Assembly: GCF_000012325.1 (NCBI RefSeq)
Contig: NC_003910.7
Span: forward strand, 62,001 to 126,000
DNA length: 64,000 nucleotides
Direction of reading: 5' to 3'
Source of the DNA: Colwellia psychrerythraea 34H
GTDB taxonomy: Bacteria; Pseudomonadota; Gammaproteobacteria; Enterobacterales; Alteromonadaceae
Shown: positions 1,625 through 59,021 of the stretch, in pieces
Layout of the letters: every line of letters starts with the position of its first letter
Position numbering within the stretch: the stretch's first letter is position 1
Program-made: the position numbers and the translations under genes
Notes under the pieces: model-generated
What the model was told of the DNA's origin: nothing
The model's input: the letters and a program-made list of their open reading frames with translations, nothing else
Databases searched by the model: none

Positions 1625-2536
1625 TTAACTTATTAACGGCATTAATTTTGGTATATCTAAGTGATATTTTACCACAAAACTATCGAATGCTGACCATTGT
1701 TCAATAGCTAGTGATCTCAAATGATTATTAATTTTTGCATCATTTGTATTATCTAAATACCATAAGCCATTTATAAAGTAGCTATAAAGAAGATAGTAAG
1801 TTAATAATATTTTATTCGGCTTGTAACTTGGTACTAAGGACATATAGCGATTAACAATCTCATCTATGTGGAGAGGTGAAATGTTATTAATAGCAATGAA
1901 CATTGATAAGTCGAAATCTACCGGTGCTAAATGGCTACATTCGAAATCTATTAACCAAGATTGTCGCGTTTCATCAATAATAATATTGCTGTAATTTATA
2001 TCACCATGGCAAATAATATTAGTGACATCAGAGCGCTTCTGTTCGATACCAATCTTTAAAGTCAGTGTTTCAGTGATGTCTGCTAAGAAAAGTTTTTGTT
2101 GTGATGGTATTGAGTTGGGGTTAGTGAATAAGCGCCGTACTGACTCAGAAGTATCTAAACAGGGAATAGTTTTAGCATTCGGTTGTGGTACTAACTGATG
2201 TAATTTAGCCATGAGAGTTAGGCCAGTATCAATACACTGACTACTGCTAAGTTCATTTTTATCCAGTGTAATACCCACAATATAGTCAGTGACTAACCAA
2301 GCATTGTCATGGTAGATAATTCTTGGGCTTAGGCCATGTTTAGCTGCATATTTGCTAGATAAAACCTCTGTTTCAGCAGTTTCACTATTTAATTTTTTTA
2401 CAAAAAAAACCTGTAAGGCAGTCGTCACTTTAATGCAGGTGTGACTCATGCCATCAATCAACAATGAAATATCTACTACCTTTTCAAAACAAGGTAGGGA
2501 TCTGAGTGAGTTAAGTTGTGAAGAGGTAAGCGACAT
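1625..2536 (-). CDS. APH/choline-kinase-fold phosphotransferase, probable thiamine kinase
   Basis: A 303-residue cytoplasmic kinase of the aminoglycoside/choline phosphotransferase fold. The Brenner catalytic motif is visible as HGD at 177-179 with the metal-binding N184, and the DFE metal-binding motif at 197-199. E. coli ThiK (YcfN) belongs to the same superfamily. This gene is the last in an operon with a TonB receptor, a YkoF-like protein and a PnuC-type permease behind a TPP riboswitch, and it starts 4 nt after the permease stop. Phosphorylation of imported thiamine, which traps it in the cell, is therefore the best inference. The substrate is not proven by sequence; a choline- or sugar-type kinase remains possible. 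Confidence 0.75.
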   Translation of the reverse strand: MSLTSSQLNSLRSLPCFEKVVDISLLIDGMSHTCIKVTTALQVFFVKKLNSETAETEVLSSKYAAKHGLSPRIIYHDNAWLVTDYIVGITLDKNELSSSQCIDTGLTLMAKLHQLVPQPNAKTIPCLDTSESVRRLFTNPNSIPSQQKLFLADITETLTLKIGIEQKRSDVTNIICHGDINYSNIIIDETRQSWLIDFECSHLAPVDFDLSMFIAINNISPLHIDEIVNRYMSLVPSYKPNKILLTYYLLYSYFINGLWYLDNTNDAKINNHLRSLAIEQWSAFDSFVVKYHLDIPKLMPLIS

Positions 2537-2540
2537 TAAA

Positions 2541-3194
2541 CTATCTAGTGTTAGCTATAGCAGAAGGTTGTAAATTCGTTGAAGACTTTTGGTAAAGTTT
2601 CAACCATTTATGATAGCCGTAACCAGCAACAATAACGAAAACAATAAATAAAACGGTAGTCGGAATTAAGCCTTTTTCAAGATATAAATAGATAGAAGCT
2701 AAATCAATAACAATCCAATAAAGCCAGTTTTCTAACACTTTGTTAGCCACTAAATAAGTAGCAAATACCGCATAAACCGTGGTGAAGGTATCTAAGTAAG
2801 GAAAGTGTGCAGGAGAATAATTATCCATAAGATAACCTAACCCCATCGCCAGTAGTGCTAGGGCAGCACAAACCTTGATATGCCAACTTAATTGCCAGCT
2901 AACGATGGTTAGTTGGCTACTTTCATTTTGATTTTGATCAGGTTGTTTAGACCATTGCCAATAACCATAAACCGCCATTAACAGGTAATAGGCGTTCAAA
3001 GCGCTATCCATTAATAATAAAACGTCATAAAAGATAACAGTATATAGTGCTGTACTTATAAAGGCTGCTGGCCAACACCATCGTGAGCCTTTAGCGGCTA
3101 GAATCACGTATGCTATTGAAAGCACCATAGCAACTAGCTCAAGCCATGGCAGCTGTTGAAAATAGGCCGATACACTGTTTAATAATTCTGTCAT
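2541..3194 (-). CDS. pnuT: PnuC-family vitamin permease, probable thiamine transporter PnuT
   Basis: Inner-membrane permease of 217 residues with about seven hydrophobic segments. It has the PnuC-family core of a WP-A-FIST-LY-like helix followed by DSALNAYYLLMAVYGYWQW. PnuC proteins move nicotinamide riboside. Comparative genomics has assigned a subgroup, PnuT, to thiamine when the gene sits under a TPP riboswitch, as here. The start codon overlaps the stop of the upstream thiamine-binding-domain gene by one base (TAATG), so the two are translationally coupled. Family assignment is firm; thiamine specificity rests on context. Confidence 0.85.
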   Translation of the reverse strand: MTELLNSVSAYFQQLPWLELVAMVLSIAYVILAAKGSRWCWPAAFISTALYTVIFYDVLLLMDSALNAYYLLMAVYGYWQWSKQPDQNQNESSQLTIVSWQLSWHIKVCAALALLAMGLGYLMDNYSPAHFPYLDTFTTVYAVFATYLVANKVLENWLYWIVIDLASIYLYLEKGLIPTTVLFIVFVIVAGYGYHKWLKLYQKSSTNLQPSAIANTR

Positions 3195-3460
3195 TAACTT
3201 TCTGCTTCAACTTGTGAACGATCACCATTAATAAATTTACAGACAAAAACTGCAGCACCTGTGGTTTTATGAACGTGCTTAATTTCAGCCATTACATGGT
3301 TCACCGCAAGATCGTAATCACCAAATACTTGCGTACTCATACCGTTGGTTATCACTTGTAAACCTTCAACACCTCTCAGTCGTTTTATAAACGCCCAAAT
3401 TTCTGTTTTATACTGTTCTTCTGCTAGTGGGTATAAGCTCAGTTCGATAGATATTTTCAT
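3194..3460 (-). CDS. YkoF/MTH1187-family thiamine-binding protein
   Basis: An 88-residue single-domain protein of the ferredoxin-like YkoF/MTH1187 family. It starts with the typical strand MKISIELSLYPL, then the helix 'EEQYKTEIWAFIKRL', and ends near the 'HKTTGAAVFVCKF' strand. Bacillus YkoF binds thiamine or hydroxymethylpyrimidine between two such domains, so a single-domain version would be expected to assemble from two or more copies. It lies 62 nt behind the TonB receptor and overlaps pnuT by one base. It has no signal peptide, so it probably acts in the cytoplasm as a thiamine carrier or sensor. Confidence 0.8.
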   Translation of the reverse strand: MKISIELSLYPLAEEQYKTEIWAFIKRLRGVEGLQVITNGMSTQVFGDYDLAVNHVMAEIKHVHKTTGAAVFVCKFINGDRSQVEAES

Positions 3461-3522: not shown

Positions 3523-5703
3523 TTAGAATTGATAATCTAGCGTAGCGCCGAAGACTAATGGCTCTGAAAGCTGCGTGTATTGTTTTGCAGTATAGCCATC
3601 ACGAGGGTCATTACCAAAGTAAAAACCTCGATTTGCGTAGTCTTCATTTGCTAAGTTACGACCCCAAATCTTTATCTGCCAATTATCTTGTATATAAGCG
3701 ACTGAGGCATTTAATAGTGCAACGGATTCTGATTGCTCGTCATGGCTATCGGAAAAGTAAAAACTATCTTTACCATCAACTGACAAGTTAATTAACCAAT
3801 GGTCAGTAGGTTGAACATTTATGCCGACGTTAAATTGATAATTTGGCGCATGGGCCTGTTCACGCCCGCTTAATGAAACACCATCAGCATTAACAAAATC
3901 ATTGAACTCTGTATCAAGTAAACCGAGTGACCCGTACACGTTTATTAAGTCATTTATATACCAAGCACCTTCAATTTCAACACCATAGTTACTACCCGTA
4001 GCGGCGTTACCTAAATAGCTAATAAATTCAGAGCTACCATCTTCACGTATTATGGTTTTAGAACTCTTAACTTGCATGTCTTCGCGATCCATATAGAAAA
4101 CCGAAGTTCGAACATAAGCACTGTTCTCGAGTAAAGAAACTTTGTAGCCGATTTCATAATTCAATAAATACTCAGGGTCAAAAGTACGTAAATCTTCAGG
4201 TAAAGTACCATCGGTATTATGCCCACCCGCTTTATAGCCTCGGTTAATTGATCCGTACCACATACTGTCTTCATTTTGCTGGTAACTAAGTACTAACTTA
4301 CCACCCACCATTGTATCGTCGATCCTGTCATCAAATAAATCTGAATTGTTATAGTCAGCACTGCGATTTTCAATGCGTAAGCCTGACATTAACGACCATT
4401 TTTCAGCAATTTGAGTATCTAATTGACCATACAACGCTACACTCGTGCTTTCGTTAATTGAAGTAAAGTCACCGCTAGCATAAGTGTATTGGCGTAAAAG
4501 GTCTTCATCGTCTTGTTTAAAGTAAACGCCTGCAACCCAAGCAGTACTGCCATTAAAAATTTCTTGGCCTTGGTTAGAAACCGCACGTAACTCAGTCGTT
4601 AATACGGTTTTATCACGGTAATAATGGTCAGTAGATGAGTAGCCATCAAAATCAGCTAAACAGCCAGATGGGGTAATGCATGGGTCTGGAGTATAAACAG
4701 GGTCATCACTGCGCCACTCATATTCGCCAAAGGCCCAATCTTCATCGTAACCATAGCCTAAATCTGTATCTGAATGGCTGACAATGGCTAATAGGGTGGC
4801 GCTTTCAAAACCTGTATAGGTAAATTTTGCTGAAAAGGCAGCTGTTTCTTGTTGGTCAAAACCAGGTTGGTCTGAATAGGTTTCTCTGGTGTTATCTAAA
4901 GAAAATACATCATAGCCATTATCAAAATCGAAATAGAATCCAGCAAGGTCAATGGTTAGATCATTACTTGCTTCTATGGCTAACTTGCCACGTACGCTTA
5001 ATTCATCACGATTGTTGGTATCATCTCGTTGTAAATGGATATTTTCGGTAAAACCGTCACTGTTATGTTGGTTGACGGCTAGACGATAATTCACTGTATC
5101 ACTTGCAGGTCCAGATAAGGCAACACCCATATCGTAAGAATTATAATTACCAACACCCAGTTGAACAGCACCTTCAAAATCTTCTGTGGGTTCATTGGTG
5201 GTAATATTGATCATGCCTGCAATTGCGTTAGCACCAAAACGTGTGCCTTGAGGACCTCGAAAAATTTCAGCTTGCTTCACATCAAATAAATTAGCGATGC
5301 TGCCAATACCAGTAAAGTCGATATCGTCAATAATCATACCTACAGAGGGGTTGATCGGCTCTTGAAATTGACTACGTTCACCAATGCCACGAATTTGATA
5401 ATAACGTGCTCGCTGTGAGCCACTGGCAAAGTTAACATTAGGGCTAACAGCAACTAATTCTTCGAGATGACGTGCATTTCGTTGATTAATTTCAATATCG
5501 GTTAAAACCGATAAAGAAGCTGGAGTATTTTGTAAGTTTTGCTGGCGAAAATCACTGGTGACCGTGATAGTTTCAAGATTGCCGGTATTGCCGGTATTGC
5601 CGGTATTGCTGGTGTCATTATTCGCTTGCTGTTCAGCTGAAGCGGTAACGTTAAATAGACTTGCAGTGATAGCTAAACAGGTAGCAGATTTGGAGAACGT
5701 CAT
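3523..5703 (-). CDS. TonB-dependent outer-membrane receptor, probable thiamine receptor
   Basis: A 726-residue TonB-dependent receptor. It has an N-terminal signal peptide (cleavage expected after NVTASA near residue 23), a TonB-box-like ETITV near residue 45, a plug domain (about 50-165) and a 22-strand-type barrel ending in the aromatic LDYQF. Thiamine-regulated receptors of this type have been predicted under TPP riboswitches in marine gammaproteobacteria. It is the first gene of the operon and its long leader carries a TPP aptamer. A 9-bp tandem repeat codes for an NTG-rich linker just before the TonB box. Receptor class is certain; ligand is inferred from riboswitch and neighbours. Confidence 0.88.
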   Translation of the reverse strand: MTFSKSATCLAITASLFNVTASAEQQANNDTSNTGNTGNTGNLETITVTSDFRQQNLQNTPASLSVLTDIEINQRNARHLEELVAVSPNVNFASGSQRARYYQIRGIGERSQFQEPINPSVGMIIDDIDFTGIGSIANLFDVKQAEIFRGPQGTRFGANAIAGMINITTNEPTEDFEGAVQLGVGNYNSYDMGVALSGPASDTVNYRLAVNQHNSDGFTENIHLQRDDTNNRDELSVRGKLAIEASNDLTIDLAGFYFDFDNGYDVFSLDNTRETYSDQPGFDQQETAAFSAKFTYTGFESATLLAIVSHSDTDLGYGYDEDWAFGEYEWRSDDPVYTPDPCITPSGCLADFDGYSSTDHYYRDKTVLTTELRAVSNQGQEIFNGSTAWVAGVYFKQDDEDLLRQYTYASGDFTSINESTSVALYGQLDTQIAEKWSLMSGLRIENRSADYNNSDLFDDRIDDTMVGGKLVLSYQQNEDSMWYGSINRGYKAGGHNTDGTLPEDLRTFDPEYLLNYEIGYKVSLLENSAYVRTSVFYMDREDMQVKSSKTIIREDGSSEFISYLGNAATGSNYGVEIEGAWYINDLINVYGSLGLLDTEFNDFVNADGVSLSGREQAHAPNYQFNVGINVQPTDHWLINLSVDGKDSFYFSDSHDEQSESVALLNASVAYIQDNWQIKIWGRNLANEDYANRGFYFGNDPRDGYTAKQYTQLSEPLVFGATLDYQF
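5581..5616 (-). repeat. 9-bp tandem repeat inside the TonB-receptor gene
   Basis: Three exact copies of GCCGGTATT (plus strand) and a fourth degenerate one. They encode NTGNTGNTG between the signal peptide and the TonB box. The unit is a multiple of three, so slippage would change linker length and not the frame. Confidence 0.85.
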
Positions 5704-5777
5704 AAAATCTCATCAAAAAAAAGTAGGAGCGTGTGCAAGGAGGATAATTTTGATGAATTTTTTAGATTTATCTACAA

Positions 5778-6050
5778 TACCAATTCTATTAATATATTAA
5801 CTATTCAGCGAGAATTAAAAGGTTTATTAGGCAAGGCTTTGATTGCAGAGAATGGTTATTCCCTTGTCGCAATCAATAACGCTGCATATAAGCCTTTACC
5901 TTTTATTAGGTACTCGCCTTTGGGAGCTCGTTAGGAAAGTGATAACGGCACGAATTTATTTGATTTAGAATGACTAAACTTTCACAAATTCTATTTGTTC
6001 TAACTTCCCTAGCGTAGCTCTGACTAAGTCATATATAAATGGACTTGGTA
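5778..6050. repeat. Family A MITE-like element, copy A1
   Basis: A 273-bp element bounded by TACCAATTCTATTAA and, inverted, TACCAAGTCCATTTA. It shares its interior with the copies at 26711, 38572 and 58554, including AGCGAGAATTAAAAGG and GAGAATGGTTATTCCC. Its right end meets the first base of the TPP aptamer. It therefore sits in the leader of the thiamine operon, between aptamer and start codon. Open frames within it are short and not credible as genes. Confidence 0.85.
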
Positions 6051-6168
6051 TCCACCATCCCTATGCCAAAAAATTAAGTAAACTAATTTTCTGCCCAGGT
6101 TCAAAGAGTATATTTCTCAGCGACAAATCAGTTAAAAATAATTAAATGACAGCGCACCCCTTGGTTCA
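6051..6168 (-). promoter_or_regulatory. TPP (THI-box) riboswitch aptamer
   Basis: Read on the minus strand, the conserved blocks come in canonical order: ACCAAGGGGTGCGC (P1/P2), a P3 hairpin of about 8 bp with one mismatch, the invariant CTGAGAAAT, a partner strand ACTCTTT for P2, TTGAACCTG, then GGCATAGGGATGGT closing P4 and P1. The P5 arm is AT-rich and longer than usual (AAAATTA paired with TAATTTT). The usual GCGTAGGGA reads GCATAGGGA, so the pyrophosphate-sensing side is not canonical. The downstream genes fit thiamine uptake exactly. Confidence 0.8.
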
Positions 6169-6173
6169 ACGCT

Positions 6174-6182
6174 ATTCTAGCA
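6174..6182 (-). promoter_or_regulatory. Candidate extended -10 promoter of the thiamine operon
   Basis: On the minus strand TGCTAGAAT matches an extended -10 (TGnTAnAAT). It would start RNA near 6167, immediately at the first bases of the aptamer. No convincing -35 hexamer is seen, which is tolerated by extended -10 promoters. Confidence 0.4.
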
Positions 6183-26496: not shown

Positions 26497-26642
26497 TAAT
26501 TAATATAGATTTGCACAAATTTGTTAGATATAGATCACTATGTCAGCAAAACTTTTATTTGTTATAGCTTCTCTGACATAGCTCTGAGGTGGGAATAAAT
26601 TTAATGGAATTGGTATAAGTAATTAATATAGATTTGCACAAA
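26497..26642. repeat. 23-bp direct repeats flanking a truncated family A element
   Basis: The 23-mer starting TAATTAATATAGATTTGCAC occurs at 26497-26519 and again at 26620-26642. Between the two copies lies about 95 bp that matches the right part of family A, with GACATAGCTCTGAGGTGGG and a final TTGGTA at 26615. The left end is missing. Confidence 0.7.
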
Positions 26643-26683
26643 AAAAATGCCGATTAACTAACTAGGATAGTTGACCGGCATTT
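26638..26683 (-). terminator. Terminator on the minus strand (small Cys-rich protein transcript)
   Basis: An AAATGCCG/CGGCATTT stem is extended by a TTAACTA/TAGTTGA helix after one mismatch. On the minus strand it runs into eight T; on the plus strand only TTT follows. It would end a transcript from the small gene at 27085 after passing through repeat A2. It may also slow recQ read-through. Confidence 0.75.
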
Positions 26684-26710
26684 CTACAAACGACAGATGA
26701 TAGAGAGTAA

Positions 26711-26973
26711 TACCAATCGAACTAATTTATTGATTACTTAGCGAGAATTAAAAGGCTTAGAGGCAAGGCATTGATTGAAGAGAATGGTTATTCCCTTGTT
26801 AAAATCAATAACGCCGCTTGTATGCCTTTTAAACTCGCCCTTCGGGAGCTAATTAGCAAACTGATAACCTCACAAAATGAATGAAATATAGACTAACTAT
26901 GTTTAACTCATTTTGCTTGTTTTAAGCTTGCTAATATAGCTCTAAGCTGACCAATAAATTAATCCGTTTGGTA
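26711..26973. repeat. Family A MITE-like element, copy A2
   Basis: A 263-bp element bounded by TACCAATCGAACTAATTTATT and, inverted, TACCAAACGGATTAATTTATT. It has the family interior: GCGAGAATTAAAAGGCTTA pairing with TAAGC/GCCTTTTAAACTCGC-type sequence, and GAGAATGGTTATTCCC in the core. It ends four bases from the stop codon of the small gene at 26978. Confidence 0.88.
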
Positions 26974-38497: not shown

Positions 38498-38571
38498 AGA
38501 TAAGCTCTTTTTGCTCCTTATTTAGGAGCAGATAAATTGAGGACCGTATATTATACAAAAATAGCTACTTA

Positions 38572-38868
38572 TACCAAGTCCATTGAGTTATTTCCCACTC
38601 AGCGAGAATTAAAAGGCTTAAAGGCAAGGCATTGATTGAAGAGAATGGTTATTCAGGAAAATATACTCCTGCATTCTCTAATAAGCTGCATCTATGCAGC
38701 GTCCTTATCAAAATCAATAACACAGCATGTAAGCCTTTACTTTTTATTTGGTACTCGCCCTTGGGAGCTTGTCAGAAAAGCAATAAATGACTATACCAAC
38801 AAAAATTTTGCTTGTTATGACTCTTCTGACATAGCTCTGAGGTGGGAATAAATTTAATGGAATTGGTA
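38572..38868. repeat. Family A MITE-like element, copy A3 with internal insertion
   Basis: A 297-bp element bounded by TACCAAGTCCATTGAGTTATT and, inverted, TACCAATTCCATTAAATTTATT. After GAATGGTTATTC it carries about 48 extra bases that include CTGCATCTATGCAGCGTCC, resembling family B copy B3, before the family A sequence resumes. Its last base abuts the stop codon of the FAD oxidoreductase gene at 38869. Confidence 0.88.
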
Positions 38869-40281
38869 TTAACAAGTAAAGCCTAGGTTAAGCATATCTA
38901 AAAGTTTAAGCCATAACCCACGTTTCCCGCCATTAGCATCAGCTTTTTCTAGCGCCTTATGAGTCAGATATACGCCAATCCAACGAAGTGGCTCTGGTGC
39001 CCATGGTATTGGTTTTTTCTTTACAAATTGCATGTCGAGAATTTCACTTGGCTTATAGCCCAATAGTTCGATACCTATTCTGGCACCAAATCGAGAAGCG
39101 CCAACCCCCAAACCGGTGTAACCGATAGCCCATGCAACGCGTCCATCATAAGCAACGCCTGGCACCACACAAAAACGAGTAGAAGTTGCAATAATACCGC
39201 TCCAGCGATGGGTGAATTTAATCCCTTTAAGTTGAGGAAATGTTTCAAAGAATTCTTCAGACAATTGCGCAAAGCGTTCAGGAATGTCGGCATAACTCTG
39301 ATCTATGCCGTTGTTAAAGTAATAACGCACAGCGCCGCCGCCGCCCCAAGTAATACGATTATCTTTAGTGAAACGATAATAGTGGAACATGTTGGCATGA
39401 TTAGAGAGCGCATGACGTGACTTATGCCAGCCAATTGAATCTAACTGTTCTTGGCTTAATGGTTGAGTTGCTATTTGGTAATCCCATACCGGAATAATTG
39501 ACCGGCGTGCTTGACCTATGGGGTTACGGTAGGCATTGGTTGCCATCAATACTTTATCGCTGATAATCTTGACGTCAGAGCAGGTGACTTCCATTTTATC
39601 TTGGCCCAGTTTTTTAAGGCTTGTCAGTGGTGTTTCTTCATAAATACGTACGCCAAGCTCCAGAATTACGCGCTTTAATCCCCAACACAAACGGGCAGGG
39701 TCGACTACGCCATCTTGTCCTCCGCGATACCATAAACCCGCTAAATAGGTAGGTGAATTGACCTGCGCCTGCATTTCTTCTTGGTTAAACCAGACAACAT
39801 CTTCGCCTTGGGCTTTTTCAGACTCGTAGGTAGCACGCAGTGCATCTACTGATGCTTGGTCAGTTGCGACAGACGTTTCACCAACTTTTTCATAACGGGC
39901 ATCAATATTATAGTGTTCAAGTGTCTCAATAAATTCTTTTAGATTTTGTTGTCCCAATTGATGCAGTTTATCTGCCTCGCCAGGAAATTGATGATCGGTA
40001 TTGGTTTCTCCATGCGCTAAACTTGAACTTAAAAAACCACCGTTTCGCCCTGAAGCACCGTCAGATATTGTCGTTTTCTCGATCAAGATAATGTCGGCAT
40101 CGGGCTGGCGCTCTTTTGCTTGAAGGGCGCCCCATAAACCAGTAAAACCACCACCAACAATTAATAGCTCGCAGCTCGTATCTGCTGACAAGGCGGGTAA
40201 AGTTTCTGGTCGAATATCCTGATCATGCCAAAGGGGACAATATTTCGAATCTTTTAATGCATCAAGGTGCTGTTTCATCAT
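38869..40281 (-). CDS. FAD-dependent amine oxidoreductase (DAO/PuuB type)
   Basis: A 470-residue DAO-family flavoprotein. The FAD-binding motif is LLIVGGGFTGLWGALQAKE (about 38-56), with the second segment ISDGASGRNGGFLSSSLAHG and the C-terminal flavin-contact HRWSGIIATSTRF/AIGYTGLGVGAS. It is related to gamma-glutamylputrescine oxidase PuuB and to polyamine or amino-acid deaminases. It is the last gene of the cluster starting at 45631. Oxidising an amine to the aldehyde used by the neighbouring dehydrogenase is a reasonable inference; PuuA, the gamma-glutamylating enzyme, is not in the window. Confidence 0.85.
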   Translation of the reverse strand: MMKQHLDALKDSKYCPLWHDQDIRPETLPALSADTSCELLIVGGGFTGLWGALQAKERQPDADIILIEKTTISDGASGRNGGFLSSSLAHGETNTDHQFPGEADKLHQLGQQNLKEFIETLEHYNIDARYEKVGETSVATDQASVDALRATYESEKAQGEDVVWFNQEEMQAQVNSPTYLAGLWYRGGQDGVVDPARLCWGLKRVILELGVRIYEETPLTSLKKLGQDKMEVTCSDVKIISDKVLMATNAYRNPIGQARRSIIPVWDYQIATQPLSQEQLDSIGWHKSRHALSNHANMFHYYRFTKDNRITWGGGGAVRYYFNNGIDQSYADIPERFAQLSEEFFETFPQLKGIKFTHRWSGIIATSTRFCVVPGVAYDGRVAWAIGYTGLGVGASRFGARIGIELLGYKPSEILDMQFVKKKPIPWAPEPLRWIGVYLTHKALEKADANGGKRGLWLKLLDMLNLGFTC

Positions 40282-53252: not shown

Positions 53253-53280
53253 ATAAGGTCACCAGTAATAATAAGTTAGA

Positions 53281-53542
53281 TACCCAAACTACCTGAAGAT
53301 GTAGGTTTCAGCTGGAATTAGGAATGCTTTAGGCAAGGCATTTATTGAAGAGAATAGTTATTCTATTGTCGAAATCAATAACGCTGCATAAAGTGTTTCT
53401 AAACCAGCCCTGCGGGGACGTATGAGCAAACCATGCTCTTCGTTGCCTCCTTTTTTAAGGGAATAACCCTTAATAAAAAGAGGTGCCTTGATCATGAATC
53501 GCTCAAGCGTCCTGAAACACGCATCTTCAAGTGGTTTTGGTA
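53281..53542. repeat. Family B MITE-like element, copy B2
   Basis: A 262-bp element with ends TACCCAAACTACCTGAAGAT and, inverted, TACCAAAACCACTTGAAGAT, both followed by TGTTTCAG- or AGGTTTCAG-like sequence. Its left interior is shared with family A (AGGCAAGGCATTTATTGAAG, GAATAGTTATTC, AATCAATAACGCTGCAT). Its right interior is shared with B3 (TTAAGGG..AACCCTTAATAAAAAG, a small hairpin, then CTTGATCATGA). Confidence 0.85.
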
Positions 53543-53602
53543 TTTACGATGACCTTATAGTGACAACATATATTCACAAAAGTATCACAGCCATGTTTTT
53601 TA

Positions 53603-58525: not shown

Positions 58526-58553
58526 GCGTAGTATATTATACCAATAAGACTAA

Positions 58554-58816
58554 TACCAAGTTGATTAAGTTCTTTCCCACTCAGCGAGAATTAAAAGGCT
58601 TAGAGGCAAGACATTGATTGAAGAGAATGGTTATTCCCTTGTCAAAATCAATAACGCTGCATGTAAGCCTTTTAAACTCGCCCTTGGGAGCTTGTTCTAT
58701 GTCCATTAACATCGTTAAATTCATTTGATTTAGAATGACTAGACCTAAACAAATTCGCCTTGTTATTGAACATCTAACATACCTCTGAGTTGGGAAGAAA
58801 TTTAATCAAATTGGTA
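58554..58816. repeat. Family A MITE-like element, copy A4
   Basis: A 263-bp element bounded by TACCAAGTTGATTAAGTTCT and, inverted, TACCAATTTGATTAAATTTC. It contains the clearest compound hairpin of the family: GCGAG (58584-58588) pairs CTCGC (58677-58681), TTAAAAGGCTTA pairs TAAGCCTTTTAA, and ATTGATT pairs AATCAAT around GAATGGTTATTC. It is flanked by ACTAA on the left and, two bases beyond its end, on the right. Confidence 0.88.
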
Positions 58817-59021
58817 TAACTAAGTTTTCATTTTCAAATGGCCTAAATATCCAATAACATCGTTGCTTTCAATCGAAATAGCCAGCTATTGCTCAATCAA
58901 GCGCCTTGTTTTTGAAAATTTATTCTCATTGAATTCTGTAGTCTTAATTAATCTCATTGGTATTATTTCAAAGTACTAATAATAAATAGATACGTAAAAC
59001 AGAAACCATAAACAGGAAATC

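Follow-up and report, generated by a model that had tools for sequence, protein, structure and literature searches.

The leader of a likely thiamine-uptake operon in Colwellia psychrerythraea 34H contains a variant TPP-type aptamer and, beyond a 273-bp MITE-like element, the platform segment that directly follows the aptamer in relatives lacking the element (Table 1). We put the chance at somewhat better than even that these parts still form a translational riboswitch, one with a split linker and a lean to its OFF state. The window referred to throughout is the whole stretch of DNA that was analysed (64,000 nucleotides; contig NC_003910.7, positions 62,001 to 126,000), and positions are counted from its first letter.

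Table 1 Features of the leader and operon in the window
Feature	Position	Strand	Basis
Extended -10 promoter element (putative), TG-C-TAGAAT, immediately 5′ of the aptamer	6174..6182	-	By eye
Variant TPP-type aptamer	6053..6166	-	RF00059 full-length match; 22-sequence alignment and pair counts
Aptamer P1	6166-6162/6057-6053	-	
Aptamer CTGAGA	6120-6115	-	
Aptamer P4	6099-6096/6063-6060	-	
Aptamer J4/5	GG 6095-6094 and GCA 6066-6064	-	
Switching strand TGGCATAGGGATGGT, P4/P1 3′ side, proposed antisequestor partner	6054..6068	-	Duplex predictions
273-bp MITE-like element (TACCAA...TTGGTA) lying in the aptamer-platform linker	5778..6050	-	
Sequestor hairpin 5′ arm TTCATCAAAA	5748..5757	-	Predicted
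Platform segment AATTATCCTCCTTGC, proposed to pair with the switching strand	5735..5749	-	Duplex predictions
Sequestor hairpin 3′ arm TTTTGATGAG, over the likely Shine-Dalgarno region (by eye)	5709..5718	-	Predicted
TonB-dependent receptor, first gene of the operon	3523..5703	-	Pfam plug and barrel
88-aa protein	3194..3460	-	Weak YkoF / Thiamine_BP (thiamine-binding protein) likeness, both below Pfam cut-off
PnuC-family transporter, PnuT-like by context	2541..3194	-	Family match
Choline-kinase/APH-fold kinase, ThiK-like by context	1625..2536	-	Family match

A sub-threshold TPP-type aptamer conserved in Colwellia

The initial annotation placed a TPP riboswitch aptamer here, a claim that the Rfam model RF00059 bears out in part. 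No match anywhere in the window reached the gathering score of 54.3 bits. At a low threshold, the model matched positions 6171-6041 of the minus strand over its full length (model positions 1-105; 27.9 bits, E 0.0035 in 1 kb). By score the identification thus falls short, an outcome that the initial annotation had itself named as refuting, and what sustains it is the full-length fit, together with its recurrence in relatives and covariation. We read 40 Colwellia uptake leaders from 37 genomes, that of the window included, accepting matches with E up to 1 (up to 10 for the window's leader in its own 1 kb); this set omits G023, which gave no match, G001, where the contig ends, and a second G031 copy at a contig edge. 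RF00059 matched the same place in 36 of the 40 leaders, none of which reached the gathering score. These matches comprise group A, 22 leaders with the window's among them (24.4-37.7 bits), and group B, 14 leaders (39.7-48.4 bits); the four leaders without a match are L102 (G002), L106 (G016), L111 and L112.

Within group A, 52 aptamer positions are invariant (n = 22), and CTGAGA, at the pyrimidine end, is unchanged in all 22. We compared group A with a TPP-type structure based on the Rfam alignment and, in part, on these very aptamer sequences: 96.6% of cells paired and 11 pairs changed on both sides, and none of 500 shuffles reached either value. The two-sided changes sit in P3 and in the P4/P5 arm; P1, P2 and P4 are nearly invariant, so their pairing offers little proof. 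Because the match recurs in 36 of 40 leaders, with these invariant positions and covarying helices in group A, chance was rejected as its origin: on comparative grounds, it is no chance match.

The genome of the window holds one RF00059 match above the cut-off (71.2 bits), upstream of thiC, a position checked in this genome only. Across the genus, 33 of 39 Colwellia genomes have an above-cut-off match, none of them at the uptake leader. In G002 (leaders L102 and L031), no TPP match precedes the receptor gene, and by eye a promoter-like TTGTTAGAAT persists; the aptamer has apparently been lost from this lineage. In L111 and L112, which belong to the second receptor copies of G035 and G011, the 5′ half of the aptamer is altered, an unrelated-looking stretch replacing its start, and the 3′ half and the platform stay.

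The P4/P5 arm is remodelled in one lineage

The aptamer scores low because its P4/P5 arm is remodelled, with J4/5 being GG/GCA instead of A-N/N-G and the 6-nt L5 gone. J4/5 and L5 form the pyrophosphate end of the TPP pocket. On the 5′ side of J4/5, group A has GG in 21 of 22 aptamers and AG in one, and on the 3′ side GCA in all 22, departing from the canonical AU/CG of the model consensus; P5 is a variable hairpin without the 6-nt L5. All 14 group B aptamers have GA/CG as their J4/5.

For other genera, we took the 25 best-scoring receptor loci in the family, in which 116 of 147 genomes matched, Colwellia included. Ordinary TPP aptamers, placed by pattern, precede the same gene in 24 of these 25 leaders. 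On its 5′ side, their J4/5 has AA in 18 cases, AT in 5 and AC in 1; its 3′ side has CG in 21 and TG in 3. The 6-nt L5 is present in all 24. By comparison the group B arm is longer, 37-49 nt separating its P4 strands against 18. The exact variant pattern was found in 19 stretches among 84,980 species genomes, a collection that may omit the window's own genome: 18 in Colwellia and one in Litorilituus lipolyticus. Among 369 genomes of the class, it occurred in the window's own only. Of 394 genomes sampled from the order, 17 gave a match to model R1: three are Colwellia variants and 14, judged by eye, are ordinary TPP aptamers. These counts come from one pattern and one model with strict filters, which looser variants could escape; G010, for example, does not fit the exact pattern, a base having been lost in GGCATAGGG.

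In its P1-P5 architecture, its GGGGTGC, CTGAGA and AACCTG elements and its place before a thiamine-related operon, the aptamer is like the TPP riboswitch of RF00059; it differs in that all 36 Colwellia uptake matches lie below the gathering score and, in the window's group, in J4/5 and L5. Judged from these alignments, the group A arm is a conserved, lineage-specific remodelling.

The operon and its setting

The TonB-dependent receptor and the PnuC-family transporter are each present in 38 of 39 Colwellia genomes. The 88-aa protein matched no Pfam or NCBIfam family at E 0.001, its PDB sequence search was empty at E 1, and the kinase scored 37 bits against TIGR02721 (thiK), far below the cut-off of 299. 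As the thiamine-related matches of the 88-aa protein and the kinase are all below cut-offs, it is by context only that the minus-strand operon is likely to serve thiamine uptake. The putative -10 element at 6182-6174, comparable to elements seen in relatives' leaders, is absent from the list of a consensus promoter scan, which demands a -35 hexamer.

Between the window and G011, the receptor gene diverges far more than its leader or its upstream neighbour: the leader is 96-99% identical and the receptor mostly 67-89% per 250-base bin, which suggests exchange or fast change of the receptor. A short tandem repeat, GGCAATACC, lies at positions 5558-5610 of the window on the minus strand, in the N-terminal region of the receptor, and translates as NTGNTGNTGN.

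The platform is displaced, not missing

In most insert-free leaders, about 70-80 nt separate P1 from the ATG, and these leaders hold TTCATCAAAA...TTTTGATGAG together with a stretch like AATTATCCTCCTTGC that is complementary to GGCATAGGGATGGTT of the aptamer. In the window, the 74 nt between the element and the ATG hold the segment that directly follows the aptamer in empty-site relatives. The initial view that the usual expression platform is missing is therefore rejected: by alignment, the platform is displaced by the element, and we infer the switching scheme from predicted pairings. Because the native platform is intact beyond it, the element is neither known to have cut the platform nor needed as a new one, the two roles that had been proposed for it; what may survive of the proposed uncoupling is a partial effect, as the models lean to OFF.

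In all 22 leaders the switching strand has its best duplex, judged by eye, within the homologous stretch of the platform. Ten or fewer of 200 shuffles gave as good a duplex in four of the 22, and up to 147 of 200 did so in the others. The platform/sequestor alone was better than about 95 of 100 shuffles in six of 22 leaders and was equalled by more than half of the shuffles in five. Sequestor and antisequestor can both be drawn in the same places, with shuffle controls that are weak in most leaders. The E. coli thiM type is a translational TPP riboswitch that sequesters the Shine-Dalgarno region. The present leader is like this type in its proposed sequestor hairpin and its segment able to pair with the aptamer 3′ strand, and differs in that a mobile element parts the aptamer from the platform.

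Filled and empty insertion sites

The 3′ strand of P1 ends at 6053, two bases from the element, confirming that the repeat abuts the aptamer. The element stands at the same position in G003 and G035, the insert of G035 being 48 nt longer. Empty sites, which had been sought as a check on the insertion, are present in G011 and G012, where GGTTATAGATAAATC is uninterrupted, and the G011 aptamer is identical to that of the window across 113 aligned positions. At the filled site of the window, G takes the place of the outermost P1 base, U. Over the leader and the first 30 nt of the gene, 74 columns are invariant in the 19 leaders without this insertion, and one of them (the outer P1 base) differs in the three leaders with it. 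A different and shorter insert, of 23-58 nt, lies about 15-20 nt further on in seven other leaders of group A.

A tree built on the neighbouring kinase gene of 35 genomes places the window's genome (G000), G003, G035, G011 and G012 in one clade (support 0.929), in which filled and empty sites are interleaved. The patchy presence of the element is likely to reflect one gain followed by loss or recombination; excision and recombination look alike in such a tree. As a natural example of a mobile element within the linker of a riboswitch, this insertion is clear. In the G016 leader (L106, L065), a 159-nt TACCAA...CTGGTA element lies within the P5 arm of a group B aptamer, a further instance of such an element entering this switch.

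The element family occupies at least 40 places in the genome including this copy (45 rows joined; 40 of 199 candidates scored). Thirty loci were fetched and the ends were read in 22 copies. The same TWA triplet flanks both sides in 16 of these and not in five, and one has an end uncovered. The present copy is among the five, with GGA and TTG on the operon strand against TTA in the empty site. The element is thus short and repeated, has inverted ends, TACCAA/TTGGTA, and shows target duplication at the family level, degenerate in this copy. Duplications of TWA presumably point to IS5/Tourist-like MITEs; the element is like TWA-duplicating MITEs in its short length, copy number and inverted ends, and differs in the degenerate duplications of this copy. 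Further full or part copies of the family lie in the window at 26530-26845, 38565-38879, 53274-53543 and 58547-58827.

Folding and energy models

The element RNA folds at -78.5 kcal/mol with its ends paired (z -6.06; none of 200 shuffles as good), and in the predicted fold of the window's full leader it forms a self-closed structure, with the aptamer helices P2-P5 and the sequestor folded alongside. In unconstrained folding, P1 has a probability of 0.00-0.02 in all five leaders tested. For the window's leader the sequestor has a probability of 1.0 whether the element is present or the flanks are joined; the values are 0.95-0.99 for G011, 0.67-0.68 for G012 and 0.18 for G018, the only one of the five leaders to favour the open state in free folding. 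With P1 almost absent and the sequestor at 1.0, ligand-free folding predicts the OFF state in the window, with no switch visible.

Among leaders that carry the element, the antisequestor costs 6.0 kcal/mol relative to the sequestor for the window, 4.4 for G003 and 4.5 for G035; among empty ones it costs 1.9 for G011, 2.1 for G012 and -1.2 for G018, differences about the size of the energy model's error. Joining the window's flanks without the element gave 3.8 kcal/mol. With 60 dinucleotide-shuffled inserts, the cost averaged 10.7 kcal/mol (minimum 6.4), none being at or below 6.0, and the reverse-complement insert cost 7.0 kcal/mol. Of five single-base-shuffled inserts, four cost 10.4-14.6 kcal/mol and one 2.5, below the real element. 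By the energy model, the self-closing element would be a mild insert with a modest lean to OFF.

Discussion

We propose that a TPP-family riboswitch governs this operon at the level of translation. With ligand present, P1 would close and the hairpin TTCATCAAAA/TTTTGATGAG would hide the Shine-Dalgarno region, shutting off uptake. With ligand absent, the aptamer 3′ strand GGCATAGGGATGGT would pair with the platform AATTATCC..TTGC, a pairing that should exclude the sequestor except as a pseudoknot. The element has inserted in the linker between these two halves, with the conserved positions staying except for the outermost P1 base. Because the transcribed element is predicted to fold into a closed structure of its own, the aptamer and platform could still meet across it and the switch could still be assembled, although its balance would move by a few kcal/mol to the OFF side.

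A less likely but serious alternative is that the insertion uncoupled the switch: a sequestor about 300 nt from the aptamer would fold locally, expression of the operon would be held down for good, and in the three genomes with a filled site the aptamer would be turning into a relic. The sequestor probability of 1.0 in the window, the dearer ON state of the filled leaders and the loss of the outer P1 base would all fit. However, the three filled leaders keep the conserved aptamer and platform positions, though their divergence so far is small; the joined flanks of the window are already costly without the element, and the cost differences lie within the error of the energy model.

Recruitment of the element as a new platform or regulator, for example through its own promoter, terminator or protein-binding hairpin, appears distinctly improbable. 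The element is strongly structured and is kept in G000, G003 and G035, but its minus strand contains neither a sigma-70-like promoter nor a terminator-like site, the native platform is intact, and G011 and G012, which are close relatives, lack it. We rejected the idea that the repeat provides the operon strand with a promoter or terminator: the only minus-strand promoter-like site (6135-6107) falls in the aptamer, and the only terminator-like site lies on the plus strand at 5600. We give hardly any credence to the view that there is no aptamer, the Rfam match being due to chance or a dead remnant across the genus, since the failure of the window and of all 36 genus matches to reach the gathering score has to be set against a match at the same place across the genus, its invariant positions, the covariation in P3 and P5 and the ordinary TPP aptamers before the same gene in other genera.

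The window's leader and that of G011, whose aptamers are identical across 113 nt, make a natural pair with and without the insertion, and let one ask how a riboswitch tolerates 273 nt between its sensor and its platform. In the aptamer itself, which is of the TPP type, the phosphate-sensing end carries a strongly conserved alteration, across one lineage, that is missed at the Rfam cut-off. A bolder combined proposal, which we regard as speculative and rather doubtful, is that the uptake aptamer branched off from the TPP riboswitch and that its rebuilt pyrophosphate pocket senses another ligand at the point of uptake (such as unphosphorylated thiamine, TMP or a precursor), with the thiC switch of the same cell keeping the canonical pocket, and that a self-folding MITE in the linker sets the threshold in three lineages. 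The change in the pocket may or may not mean a changed ligand. Whether the rebuilt pocket prefers TPP is, to us, a more interesting question than the insertion, and the remodelled aptamer is the part of this system that could surprise.
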